Assembly (NCBI RefSeq): GCF_900102375.1
Contig: NZ_FNBO01000002.1
Coordinates: 124,001 to 188,000 of the forward strand
Source: Halorubrum xinjiangense
GTDB lineage: Archaea; Halobacteriota; Halobacteria; Halobacteriales; Haloferacaceae
Direction: 5' to 3'
Length of the DNA stretch: 64,000 bases
Numbering within the stretch: the stretch's first letter is position 1; every line of letters begins with the position of its first letter. The position numbers and the translations under genes were made by a program. Below are positions 9,957 to 42,860 of the stretch, piece after piece. The notes beneath the pieces are model-generated. The model ran no database searches. It saw nothing but the letters and a program-made list of their open reading frames with translations, and was not told where the DNA came from.

Positions 9957-10382
9957 CTTATAAATGAAACGAGGCGGTGGCGCGTGCCGGCAAGCGCCGC
10001 ACCGCGGCGCGAACCGCACGCGCGAGGTCGCCGGCGCTACGCGCCGGCTGCCAGAGGGACCTTCGGTCCCTCGCTGGAGTCAGTCGCCGGAGCGAAGCGG
10101 AGGCGACTGACGAGGCTGGGGAGGCGTGAGGTGCTGTGCGGGGCTGGGGGGTGGGAATCAAAGGGGCAGCCGGGAGGACGAAGCCCGACGACGCAAGCAC
10201 CGCAGCGAGCGGAGCGAGCAAGGCGCGCAGCGAGGCGCGCGAGTCCTCCCGGCTGGGGCTTTGGAGGTGTTCGTCGCCGATCCACAATCAAATTTTTATA
10301 AACGAGCGGCTGGGGTTTTGGAGGGGTTCTCCGCAGATCCGCAGTCGATTATTTATAAGTGATCGGCTGAGGTCTTGGCGGT
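9957..10382 (+). repeat. Structured repeat element, copy A
   Basis: It begins at CTTATAAATGA (9957). Hairpins follow, including GAGGGACC/GGTCCCTC near 10054-10072. Helix P1 has arms at 10079-10088 and 10102-10111 around a 13-base loop. The block GAGGCTGGGGAGGCGTGAGG starts at 10112, and AAAGGGGCAG is at 10160-10169. Helix P2 is a perfect 13-bp inverted repeat (10167-10179 with 10243-10255), then CTGGGGCTTTGGAGG. The tail has GGCTGGGG-type units at 10251, 10308 and 10365 (57-base period), with TTTATAA between them. No convincing protein is encoded. It lies between priS and a small membrane-protein gene. Confidence 0.85.
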
Positions 10383-17476: not shown

Positions 17477-18013
17477 ATTTATAAATGAGCGAGGCGGTGC
17501 GGCGGCGCGCGCCTCCGAGCGGCCGCCCTCGGCGGCCGCGAGTAGGGAGAGACCGAAGGTCTCTCTGACAGCCGGCGGCGGAGCCGCCGGCGAGAGCGCG
17601 TGCGAGGGACGCGGTGAGCGCTCGAAGAGCGCGAACCGCGAGGCTGGGGAGGCGTGAGGTGCGGTTGCGGTGCTGTGCGGGGTGGGACTCAAAGGGGCAG
17701 TCGCGAGGGCGAAGCACGACGACGCTAGGACCGCAGGAGCGAGCGAAGCGAGCGACGAGGACCGTGGTTCGAAACGGCGGAGCCGTTTCGTCATCGCCAG
17801 AAATCGGATATTTCTGGCTAGCAGTCAGAATCATTCGGATTCTGACGACATCACGAGACGCCTTCGGCGTCTCGAACGACAGCGAGTCGCGCGAGCCCTC
17901 GCGACTGGGGCTTTGGAGGCGCTCACCACCGATCCGCGATCAACTGTTTATAAGCGAGCGGCTTGGGCTTCGGAGGCGTTCACCGCCGCTCTGCTGTCAA
18001 CTACTTATAAATA
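17477..18013 (+). repeat. Structured repeat element, copy B
   Basis: It begins at ATTTATAAATGAGCGAGGCGG (17477). It contains stems such as GAGAGACC/GGTCTCTC and GCCGGCGGC/GCCGCCGGC, then GAGGCTGGGGAGGCGTGAGG from 17640 and CAAAGGGGCAG at 17690-17700. P2 arms CAGTCGCGAGGGC (17698-17710) and GCCCTCGCGACTG (17895-17907) are perfectly complementary. The long P2 interior holds a hairpin module (AAACGGC/GCCGTTT, CCAGAAAT/ATTTCTGG, GTCAGAATC/GATTCTGAC, CGAGACGCC/GGCGTCTCG). The tail has two units 57 bases apart and ends at CTTATAAAT (18004-18012). It fills the gap between the convergent prepilin peptidase and dnaG. Confidence 0.85.
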
Positions 18014-19827: not shown

Positions 19828-19870
19828 TATCCGATAGTTCTTAGTGTTTATAGACGTACTATTATCGCAC

Positions 19871-20137
19871 ATGGTGCGCTTACGGAGCGATCTCGTGTGG
19901 ATACCGACGTTCGCAATACTCGTGGCGTTCGCAGTGCCGTGGCCGCTGTGGGGCGTCGATCGCGTCGTTGCGGGGCTGCCGGCCTGGATCTGGTGGCACG
20001 TGGCGTGGCTCGGGCTGTGCGCGGCCCTGTTCGCGCTGTTCGTCCGGAGCGGCGCGTGGGAGCGCGGGATGGGACGGCGGCCGGAATCGAGCGACGGTCG
20101 GAGCGGCGGCCCCGCGCCGGGGGGTGACCGGCGATGA
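19871..20137 (+). CDS. DUF3311 small membrane protein, partner of the sodium:solute symporter
   Basis: The 88-residue product starts MVRLRSDLVWIPTFAILVAF and has two helices (AILVAFAVPWPLWGV and AWIWWHVAWLGLCAALFALF). DUF3311 proteins are commonly encoded immediately before SSS-family symporters and are thought to be a small accessory subunit. Here the C-terminal GGDRR-stop coding sequence has been duplicated, so that the gene ends in the first of five linked stop-start junctions leading into the symporter gene. An earlier GTG lies inside the TATA box and is not used. Confidence 0.8.
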   Translation: MVRLRSDLVWIPTFAILVAFAVPWPLWGVDRVVAGLPAWIWWHVAWLGLCAALFALFVRSGAWERGMGRRPESSDGRSGGPAPGGDRR

Positions 20138-20229
20138 CGCTGGGGGGTGACCGGCGATGACGCTGGGGGGTGACCGGCGATGACGCTGGGGGGTGACCGG
20201 CGATGACGCTGGGAGGTGACCGCCCGTGA
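20119..20229 (+). repeat. 23-base tandem repeat making four 8-codon mini-ORFs with chained stop-start overlaps
   Basis: The unit ATGACGCTGGGGGGTGACCG plus GCG (23 bases) recurs from 20134. Starts at 20134, 20157, 20180 and 20203 each encode a nine-codon frame, MTLGGDRR-stop for the first three and MTLGGDRP-stop for the fourth. Every stop overlaps the next start by four bases (ATGA), and the last stop overlaps the symporter start (GTGA at 20226-20229). Each unit also carries GGGGGGTGA, a Shine-Dalgarno-like stretch. The original gene junction has been copied in tandem. Confidence 0.9.
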
Positions 20230-21710
20230 CGCTCGGCGTCTCGCTCGGGGTCGTCGTCGGCTACCTCGCCGTCGCGCTCGCGCTCGGTCTCGTCGCGTAC
20301 CGCGTCTCCGAGACGACGGCCGAGGACTACTACCTCGCGAGCCGGTCTATCGGGACGCTCGTCCTGCTTTTCACGACGTTCGCGACGCTGCTCTCGGCGT
20401 TCACCTTCTTCGGCGGCCCGAACCTCGCGTACGCCGCCGGTCCGGAGTGGTTGGTCGTGATGGGGACGCTCGACGGCGTCTTATTCGCCGTGCTGTGGTA
20501 CGTCATCGGCTACAAGCAGTGGCTGATCGGCGCCCGCAACGGCTACGTGACGCTCGGCGAGATGCTCGGCGACCGGTTCGGCTCGACCGGGCTGCGCGCG
20601 CTGGTCGCCGGGGTGAGCCTCCTCTGGCTGTTCCCCTACGTGATGCTTCAGCAGATGGGCGCCGGCGAGGCGCTCGTCGGGCTCACCGACGGCGCGGTCC
20701 CCTACTGGGGCGGCGCGGCGCTCATCACGGGGTTCATGATCCTCTACGTCGCCGTCGCGGGGCTCCGCGGCGTGGCGTGGACGGACACCCTTCAGGGCCT
20801 GTTCATGCTCTCTATCGTCTGGGTCGCCGCCGCGTGGATCGTCTCGGCGGTCGGGGGCGTCGGCGCCGCGACCGAGGGGATGCTCGCGGCACGACCCGAG
20901 TTCGGGAGCTTCGGCGGCGGGACGTACACGCCCGGGTTCATCGTCTCGACGGCGATCACCATCGCGTTCGGGGTGACCATGTTCCCGCAGATCAACCAGC
21001 GGTTCTTCGTCGCGAAGTCGGGCGCGGTGCTGAAGCGGTCGTTCGCGCTGTGGCCCGTGCTGGTGCTGCTGCTTTTCCTCCCCGCGTTCATGCTCGGCGC
21101 GTGGGCGGCCGGGATGCCGATCGAGGTGCCCGAGGGCGCGAACGTGCTGCCGGTCGTGTTGAACGAGTACGCGCCCGCGTGGTTCGCCGCGCTCGTCGTC
21201 GCCGGCGCGATGGCCGCGATGATGTCCTCCTCGGACTCGATGCTGCTCTCCGGGTCGTCGTACTTCACCCGCGACCTCTACCGACCGCTGATCGACGCGG
21301 ACGCCTCCGAGCGGCGCGAGGCGTGGATCGCCCGGATCGGCGTGGCGGCGTTCGCGACGCTGGCGTTCGTCGCGAGCCTGTTCCGCCCGGGGACGCTGAT
21401 CGAGGTGGGCGACACCGCCTTCTCCGGGTTCGCGCTGCTCGCGCTCCCCGTGATCTGCGCGCTCTACTGGCCGCGGACGACGCGCACCGGGATGATCGCC
21501 GGCGTCGCGGTCCCGCAGGTCGCGTACCTCGCGGTGGTGCTGTCGGCGGTCGTCGGCGCCGTCCCGACGCTCCCGCGGACCGTCCTCGGTGGCTGGGACG
21601 TTGCGCTCGGGCTGATGGTCCTGTCCGGTGCGCTGACGGTCGCGGTCTCGCTGGTCACCGCGCCGACCGAGGAGGGCGACGCCTCGCGGTTCGCGGTGGT
21701 AAGCGACTGA
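20226..21710 (+). CDS. Sodium:solute symporter (SSS family)
   Basis: The 494-residue product, starting with GTG as MTLGVSLGVVVGYLAVALAL, has about 13 membrane helices. Family hallmarks include TAEDYYLASRSIGTLVL, ITIAFGVTMFPQINQRFFVA and AMAAMMSSSDSMLLSGSSYFTRDLYRP around the sodium site. The transported compound may be a carboxylate, an amino acid or pantothenate and cannot be fixed from sequence. It is paired with the DUF3311 gene through a mini-ORF relay, so its translation may depend on reinitiation. The next gene is separated by repeat copy C. Confidence 0.9.
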   Translation: MTLGVSLGVVVGYLAVALALGLVAYRVSETTAEDYYLASRSIGTLVLLFTTFATLLSAFTFFGGPNLAYAAGPEWLVVMGTLDGVLFAVLWYVIGYKQWLIGARNGYVTLGEMLGDRFGSTGLRALVAGVSLLWLFPYVMLQQMGAGEALVGLTDGAVPYWGGAALITGFMILYVAVAGLRGVAWTDTLQGLFMLSIVWVAAAWIVSAVGGVGAATEGMLAARPEFGSFGGGTYTPGFIVSTAITIAFGVTMFPQINQRFFVAKSGAVLKRSFALWPVLVLLLFLPAFMLGAWAAGMPIEVPEGANVLPVVLNEYAPAWFAALVVAGAMAAMMSSSDSMLLSGSSYFTRDLYRPLIDADASERREAWIARIGVAAFATLAFVASLFRPGTLIEVGDTAFSGFALLALPVICALYWPRTTRTGMIAGVAVPQVAYLAVVLSAVVGAVPTLPRTVLGGWDVALGLMVLSGALTVAVSLVTAPTEEGDASRFAVVSD

Positions 21711-21782: not shown

Positions 21783-22165
21783 CAAAGCCCCAGCCGCTCG
21801 CTTATAAATGAGTGATCGCGGATCGGCGGCGAACACCGCCAAAGCCCCAGTCGCTCGTTTATAAATGATACCTCGCAGATCGGTAGCGAATCCCTCCAAA
21901 GCCCCAGTCGCGAGGGCGACGCACGCTCGCTGCGCTCCTCACTCGGTCGCTCACTCCGTTCGCTCCCTCGTTGCGGTGCTTACGTCGCCTGCGCCGCCCT
22001 CGCGACTGCCCCTTTGAGTCCCACCCCGCCCCGCACGGCACCGCAGCCTCACACCTCCCCAGCCTCGTCGGTCGCCCTCCGCGTTGCTCCGGGCGACCGA
22101 CTCCCTCGCACGCGCTCCTCGCGGCCGCCGGAGGCGGCCGCTCGGAGGCGCGCGCCACCGCACTT
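21783..22165 (-). repeat. Structured repeat element, copy C (lacks the TTTATAAATGA end)
   Basis: It lies in reverse orientation. The tail units start CAAAGCCCCAG at 21783, 21840 and 21897 (57-base period), with TTATAAATGA between them. P2 arms at 21905-21917 and 21996-22008 are a perfect 13-bp match, identical to copy B. P1 arms are at 22067-22077 and 22091-22101 around a loop reading GGAGCAACGCGGA on the minus strand. A GGCCGCC-rich stem is near 22122. The GGCGGTGG-TTTATAAATGA terminus seen in A, B and E is absent, so this copy is truncated or diverged there. A 7-bp inverted repeat (22170-22176 with 22190-22196) follows. Confidence 0.82.
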
Positions 22166-26893: not shown

Positions 26894-26899
26894 GACGCG

Positions 26900-27060
26900 C
26901 GCTCTGCTGCCACGCGCTCCGTCTCTTCGCCGCCACGCGCTCTGCTGCCACGCGCTCCGTCTCTTCGCCGCCACGCGCTCTGTTCTTCCGCCGCCACACG
27001 CTCTGCCCCTTCGCCGTCTCGCCTCGAACGCTTTTATCTGATGCCGGAGCCACGCGCTCT
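26900..27060 (+). repeat. CCACGCGCTCTG repeat between the HEAT and phospholipase D-like genes
   Basis: A 38-base unit (CGCTCTGCTGCCACGCGCTC then CGTCTCTTCGCCGCCACG) occurs at about 26900 and 26938 and continues partially at 26976. The core CCACGCGCTCTG or close variants appear about six times, the last right before the GTG at 27061. The TATA box CTTTTATC at 27031-27038 lies 27 bases from that GTG. Confidence 0.7.
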
Positions 27061-42204: not shown

Positions 42205-42860
42205 GTCGAGGTCCCAGCCACTGGCTTATAAATGACTGAGTGTGAATCGGCGGCGAACACCGCCAAAACCCAGCCGATCGCTTATAAATGGTTAGCGATG
42301 AATCGGCGGAGAACACCTCCAAAGCCCCAGCCGCGAAGCCGCCGCACACTCGCTGTCGCCCGAAAATCAGAGATTTTCGGGATGTCGTCAGAATCCTTCG
42401 GATTCTGACTGCTAGCCAGAAATCTCTGATTTCTGGCGATGACGAGACGCCTTTGGCGTCTCGAACCACGCTCCTCACTCGTTCGCTCCGCTCACTCGTT
42501 CCGGTGCTTGCGTCGTCTGCGGCGGCTTCGCCGCCGGCGAGACGCTACGCGTCTCTGGCAGCCGGCGGCTTCGCCGCCGGCGACTGCCCCTTTGAGTCCC
42601 ACCCCGCACCGCAACCGCACCTCACGCCTCCCCAGCCTCGTCGGTGGTCCTCCGCTACGCTCCGGACCACCGACTCCAGCGAGGGACCTTCGGTCTCTCC
42701 CTACTCGCGGCCGCCGGGGGCGGCCGCTCGCAGGCACGCAGGGAGGCGCGACGCGCCTCTTGCAGCGAGGGACTACGTCCCTCGGGCAACCGGGCTTCGC
42801 CCGGTGACAGCCGGCGGCTCTGCCGCCGGCGACGCCACCGCCTCGTTTATTTATAAATGG
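42205..42860 (-). repeat. Structured repeat element, copy E, the largest
   Basis: It is in reverse orientation. Tail units with CTTATAAATG are at about 42225 and 42281, then CAAAGCCCCAG (42319). The P2 interior holds a hairpin module shared with copy B (GATTTCTGG, GCTAGC and CAGAATC blocks, each with a different stem). P1 arms are at 42640-42650 and 42664-42674 with minus-strand loop GGAGCGTAGCGGA. More hairpins follow, including GGCCGCC, GAGGCGCG/CGCGCCTC, GAGGGAC/GTCCCTC, ACCGGGC/GCCCGGT and GCCGGCGGC/GCCGCCGGC. It ends at GTTTATTTATAAATGG (42845-42860). P2 arms differ from the other copies and have one wobble pair. Confidence 0.84.

Follow-up and report, generated by a model that had tools for sequence, protein, structure and literature searches.

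How do ribosomes that finish one gene of a coupled pair reach the next when a tandem repeat lies across the border of the two? The question is raised by a stretch of Halorubrum xinjiangense DNA of 64,000 nucleotides (contig NZ_FNBO01000002.1, positions 124,001 to 188,000), here called the window, in which such a repeat lies between a gene for a DUF3311 membrane protein and a gene for a sodium:solute symporter. We analyzed the anatomy of the repeat, the same junction in related genomes, and similar arrangements at other gene borders in haloarchaea.

Anatomy of the array and its flanking genes

The array detected by TRF (Table 1; 94% matches) contained three identical 23-mers spanning 20138–20206, and its best 92-nt stretch showed a lag-23 identity of 88/92, whereas none of 1000 Markov shuffles exceeded 48. 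Every 23-nt unit carried an SD, a start, and an overlapping stop. Start/stop overlaps followed one another at 20134, 20157, 20180, and 20203 (ATGA) and at 20226 (GTGA), so that five successive 4-nt overlaps bridged DUF3311 and the symporter. An earlier sequence-only reading had claimed a 23-base repeat of the stop-start junction, with ATGA four times and GTGA once, and four 8-residue mini-ORFs leading from DUF3311 to the symporter; the repeat is real by TRF, overlap positions, and shuffles, and the four mini-ORFs are present at 20134–20229. The ending GGDRR, which had been ascribed to all of them, held for mini-ORFs 1–3, whereas mini-ORF 4 ends in RP. The SD of each unit, a feature absent from that reading, is complementary to the 16S 3' end of the same genome (GGAUCACCUCC) and sits within the upstream ORF, which is frequent but not essential in coupled pairs. 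The duplex energies of all copies were nearly equal, from -18.0 to -18.9 kcal/mol. Within 20119–20218, the copied SDs read GGGGGTGA, and the last one, closest to the symporter, reads GGAGGTGA, a perfect anti-SD match. Runs of six G recurred every 23 nt in the array.

Table 1. Positions of the array, its parts, and the flanking genes in the window.
Feature	Position	Strand	Evidence or remark
TTTATA, candidate TATA box	19847..19852	+	24 nt upstream of DUF3311 ATG
DUF3311 (PF11755), a small membrane protein of 88 aa ending in ...PGGDRR*	19871..20137	+	Pfam E 2.9e-07
Tandem array, period 23, 5.2 copies	20115..20233	+	TRF, shuffles
First SD GGGGGTGA, within DUF3311 C-terminus	20119..20126	+	then every 23 nt
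Mini-ORF 1, MTLGGDRR*	20134..20160	+	ORF translation
Mini-ORF 2, MTLGGDRR*	20157..20183	+	ORF translation
Mini-ORF 3, MTLGGDRR*	20180..20206	+	ORF translation
Mini-ORF 4, MTLGGDRP*; stop overlaps symporter start (GTGA)	20203..20229	+	ORF translation
Final SD copy GGAGGTGA	20211-20218	+	sequence
Sodium:solute symporter, PF00474 SSF, 494 aa, GTG start	20226..21710	+	Pfam

The symporter scored 162 bits against PF00474 (gathering score 22.8) and was PanF-like, yet it fell under the equivalog cut-offs of PanF, PutP, and MctP. Its start is conserved as MTLG.. across Halorubrum. The position of the TTTATA upstream of DUF3311 would fit a leaderless operon transcript starting there, since a TATA-to-ATG spacing of this kind is typical of leaderless haloarchaeal transcripts. 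The sequence-only reading had named an internal transcription start, giving a leaderless symporter mRNA, as the finding that would speak against it. An internal promoter feeding the symporter was set aside for want of sequence support, because there was no A/T-rich stretch between the DUF3311 start and the symporter: no A/T run of at least 5 occurs in 19871–20226, G+C is 74% from 19900 to 20226, and the TTTATA lies before DUF3311.

The window also carries a family of approximately 57-bp tandem units (AAAGCCCCAG..CGCT..TTATAAA..GGCG) at 10250–10378, 17901–18010, 21783–21911, and 42213–42333. These units occur in two orientations with a TATA-like TTTATAA or CTTATAA in each, and one of the arrays directly follows the symporter. 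A perfect 38-bp direct repeat of 2.2 copies at 26898–26982 overlaps predicted ORFs of both strands.

Origin of the array and effect of unit number

The symporter was present in 51 of 53 Halorubrum genomes. Among 130 DUF3311-symporter loci scored, in which some species were counted twice, 122 were coupled by an overlap of 4 nt (85 loci), 8 nt (25 loci), or 1 nt (12 loci). The array occurred at this junction only in the genome studied here (51 symporter-bearing Halorubrum genomes; 130 loci), and a search of the same genome for array-like copies returned only the array itself and one partial match of 72%. In the sister locus L009 (G022), the junction is single (GCGCTGGGGGGTGACCGCCGGTGACGCTCGG) and contains CGCT twice, exactly 23 nt apart. 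This pair is a likely seed for slippage, and slippage between the two copies would explain the array period of 23. Judged from these comparisons, the array evidently arose recently, when one SD and stop-start junction was expanded in tandem. At the same junction of a second species, CBA1125 (L051), a lone 10-codon mini-ORF (VTGATGGDRR*, 29 nt) with -4 overlaps on both sides forms an independent one-step relay.

When 0 to 7 copies of the exact unit were placed at the junction in silico, the two proteins stayed at 88 and 494 aa and the chain of 8-codon ORFs was unbroken, since DUF3311 always ends in the first unit and the symporter always starts in the last. Because about 58% of 92-nt inserts of random order would be open, the phase alone is informative for the array in the window, which could be neutral and new.

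Mini-ORF chains at other gene borders

We scanned genomes for two SD+RTGA junctions 18–45 nt apart, with the reversed pattern as a control. The pattern matched 8 of 53 Halorubrum genomes and the reversed pattern none; in the class, 46 of 392 genomes matched. Removal of low-complexity and homologous loci from the class scan left 42 distinct loci, and 33 of these were in relay phase, compared with about 13.5 expected (9/28; p=8e-10), although the species are related and the counts are not independent events. All 33 were open ORFs of about 6–15 codons. Tandem junction duplications between long ORFs were relays in 12 cases and not in 1 (chance 1/3), with a gene-context filter that was set only once the results for spacings 6 and 7 were known. 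A hold-out at spacing 4, for which the criteria had been written before the search (originally meant for spacing 5), gave 4 relays and 1 locus that was not; in one of these relays (L289), the end of the upstream gene was later moved to a stop slightly before the first one, and the chain was still unbroken. In the spacing-7 scan without gene context, tandem repeats were not biased in phase (6/17), because repeats inside proteins contaminate that scan. Spacing 5 was left out, since the TGA of GGTGA is in frame with the upstream stop and makes a -4 junction impossible; its matches look mostly like intra-protein repeats. Examples of relays run from 273 aa through 11 and 11 to 352 aa, from 424 through 12 and 12 to 279, and from 278 through 13 and 13 to 212. 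The downstream genes tested were ordinary ones (ABC permeases, MnhE, GNAT, and FecCD), and relays at different junctions had a common architecture with differing sequences. Annotation can easily overlook chains of this kind, since the majority of their ORFs are only 2–16 codons long.

Two further loci were noted in the scans. At L280 (G151:C17:30163-30332), two long ORFs, chitinase-like by eye, are separated by five mini-ORFs, which read MMSIDQQVNQ except for one longer copy that spans an assembly N. At L150 (G000:C1:19454-19528), in the same genome as the array, an SD-ATGA unit of 29 nt (MTLGAGGGRR) is duplicated before a lactate-permease-like gene, with only 39 open codons upstream; this border was rejected as a second array, since no long upstream gene ends there.

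Individual borders allowed inserted and uninserted junctions to be compared. At an ABC permease-ATPase border, inserts of 22–109 nt were found in 12 Halorubrum species including this genome (G000 C2:307644-308452), and the chain was intact, by -1 or -4 overlaps, in 12/12; 18 without an insert were directly coupled. Shuffling the inserts at constant length gave an expectation of 0.49 intact, compared with 11/12 scored by the script, which missed one because it takes another start codon for L341. The relay at that border, the second of this genome and outside the window (G000:C2:308393-308452; L294, L329), has a 47-nt unit and leads from the ABC permease through a 16-codon ORF (VMLCASNGLMRREVTR) to an ATPase starting VMLRASDV. 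At an ECF-type ATPase border (named by eye), the chain was intact at 18 of the 23 loci with an insert, compared with 7.0 expected from shuffles, and the other 5 of 23 had no intact chain. The longest chain at this border (L299; G031:C157:49437-49748) has fifteen serial mini-ORFs before the ATPase, of 2, of 3, and then thirteen of 8 codons, the last with a 23-bp unit and higher-order repeats, and another species (G032) has three 8-codon units. A nosF/nosY-like border (named by eye) carries a mini-ORF in three species, with a period of 26 or 23 nt and differing peptides (MMGSTGDRG, MMGSTGDCG, and MNDAGDHR); in relatives the two genes simply overlap by 4 or 8 nt. At an RNA-methyltransferase border (named by eye), one species has 2 mini-ORFs and a related one has 3. 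The peptides vary while the phase stays, which suggests, in species that are not independent, that selection acts on the chain and not on the peptides.

Proposed serial reinitiation, its rivals, and known systems

Published coupling rules bear directly on the array. In Haloferax volcanii, 9/9 tested overlapping pairs were strictly coupled (Huber 2019, PMC6728339), and gaps of +22/23 nt abolished coupling (Huber 2023, PMC10666635); in E. coli, the last 15 nt of the upstream gene are enough for coupling (Huber 2023, PMC10666635). Because gaps of 22–23 nt abolish coupling, a 92-nt insert should leave the symporter silent if it brought no new stop-start overlaps, and the array supplies them. We propose that a unit duplication at the coupled DUF3311/symporter junction started the array, and that each added copy, being 23 nt long (2 mod 3) with its own SD, stop, and start, would become an 8-codon mini-ORF joined to its neighbors by 4-nt overlaps. 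Ribosomes ending DUF3311 would then most likely go through five successive rounds of termination and reinitiation before they reach the symporter. The peptides would not be the working part; the mini-ORFs would serve as stepping stones that preserve coupling across the 92 nt inserted. The idea of the sequence-only reading that a ribosome leaving DUF3311 reinitiates through the mini-ORFs is thus the best explanation, backed by the comparative data and by published haloarchaeal termination-reinitiation data. The analysis shows the anatomy of the array, its recency, the recurrence of such chains in haloarchaea, and their preference for relay phase; from there we infer translation of the mini-ORFs and a dependence of the symporter on it. 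We consider this explanation as a whole, with recent expansion, serial reinitiation, and coupling preserved over the insert, to be probable.

The strongest rival, to which we give somewhat less than an even chance, is that the array is a neutral minisatellite, in which slippage copied a junction together with both gene ends, harmlessly and without changing expression. Ribosomes may then translate the mini-ORFs with nothing selected at this locus, so that neutrality is compatible with a working relay. It accords with an array found at this locus in one genome only, with near-identical unit copies, with the slippage seed in the sister locus, and with two proteins that are the same whatever the unit number; it does not predict that inserts at coupled junctions elsewhere are strongly biased toward relay phase and intact despite changes in length and sequence.

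It is possible, but rather unlikely, that copy number tunes symporter output downward through the fraction of ribosomes lost at each reinitiation, like serial uORFs in eukaryotes. Any loss per step would be multiplied over five serial reinitiations, and species do differ in unit number at other junctions (13 vs 3; 2 vs 3). With a per-step efficiency of 0.5, only 3% would get through five steps and next to nothing through sixteen, and the 15 mini-ORFs before the ABC-type ATPase of L299 would leave almost no product unless the steps were very efficient. That chain therefore suggests that per-step efficiency is high, and the probability of strong tuning by copy number is lowered accordingly.

There is only a slight chance that the repeated SDs raise the local ribosome concentration and that translation of the symporter begins de novo at the last and strongest of them, GGAGGTGA. 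The perfect anti-SD match of this copy favors such a start, but the duplex energies are almost equal over all copies, and H. volcanii showed no de novo initiation at the downstream SDs of overlapping pairs (PMC6728339). Still less probable is a nucleic-acid element, either a G-tract structure or an RNA fold, that regulates the operon: runs of six G do recur every 23 nt, but 17-nt loops are long for a quadruplex, the fold was barely better than shuffles (z -1.42), and relays elsewhere share architecture and not sequence. A phase-variation switch, in which slippage would change the frame so that the symporter is either made or not, had been put forward because 23 is not a multiple of 3, and it is highly implausible, since the units are self-contained and whole-unit changes (0–7 copies) leave both proteins and the chain unaltered; partial-unit changes alone could switch the frame.

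Serial reinitiation along the mini-ORFs may reach well beyond this locus. We give about even chances to the broader proposal that relay mini-ORFs are general and selected in haloarchaea, that inserts at coupled borders are tolerated mainly with chained overlaps, and that chains of up to 15 reflect many low-loss restarts. Such chains would point to a survival route for operons with DNA inserted at coupled borders, and chains of 1–15 mini-ORFs, some with near-identical units, offer a ready dose series for post-termination restart (70S idling or 30S, and per-step efficiency).

In the open-licence literature we found no report of tandem-repeated coupled junctions in archaea, and MIRU is the nearest system. 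Yeast GCN4 has serial uORFs with reinitiation, and a scanning 40S moves between its spaced uORFs. The array similarly places several tiny ORFs serially ahead of a main ORF, but its stops and starts overlap and leave no room for scanning. HMW1A of H. influenzae, a repeat-based contingency locus (PMC8262952), likewise has a tandem repeat near the gene start; in contrast, unit changes in a contingency locus alter the frame or the promoter spacing, and whole-unit changes in the array (0–7 copies) cause no frame switch and leave both proteins and the chain as they are. MIRUs are short repeats at gene borders, with a small ORF coupled to the downstream gene at -4 spacing, a coupling thought to limit insertion damage; their tandem copy number varies, and they are dispersed over the chromosome and appear mobile (PMC12548453). 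The repeat ORF of the array is also coupled at -4 to the downstream gene. Classification of the array as a MIRU was nevertheless rejected, since its unit is only 23 bp (40–100 bp in MIRU; PMC2734929) and it is a local copy of the junction with no interspersed copies in the genome. The closest mechanistic parallel is termination-reinitiation at -4/-1 overlaps in H. volcanii, which shares with the array the ATGA/TGATG overlap, the internal SD, and the strict distance rule. The H. volcanii cases (PMC6728339, PMC10666635) are single junctions, whereas the array is that junction repeated, with four 8-codon ORFs between the genes, and in one relative 15 mini-ORFs follow one another.
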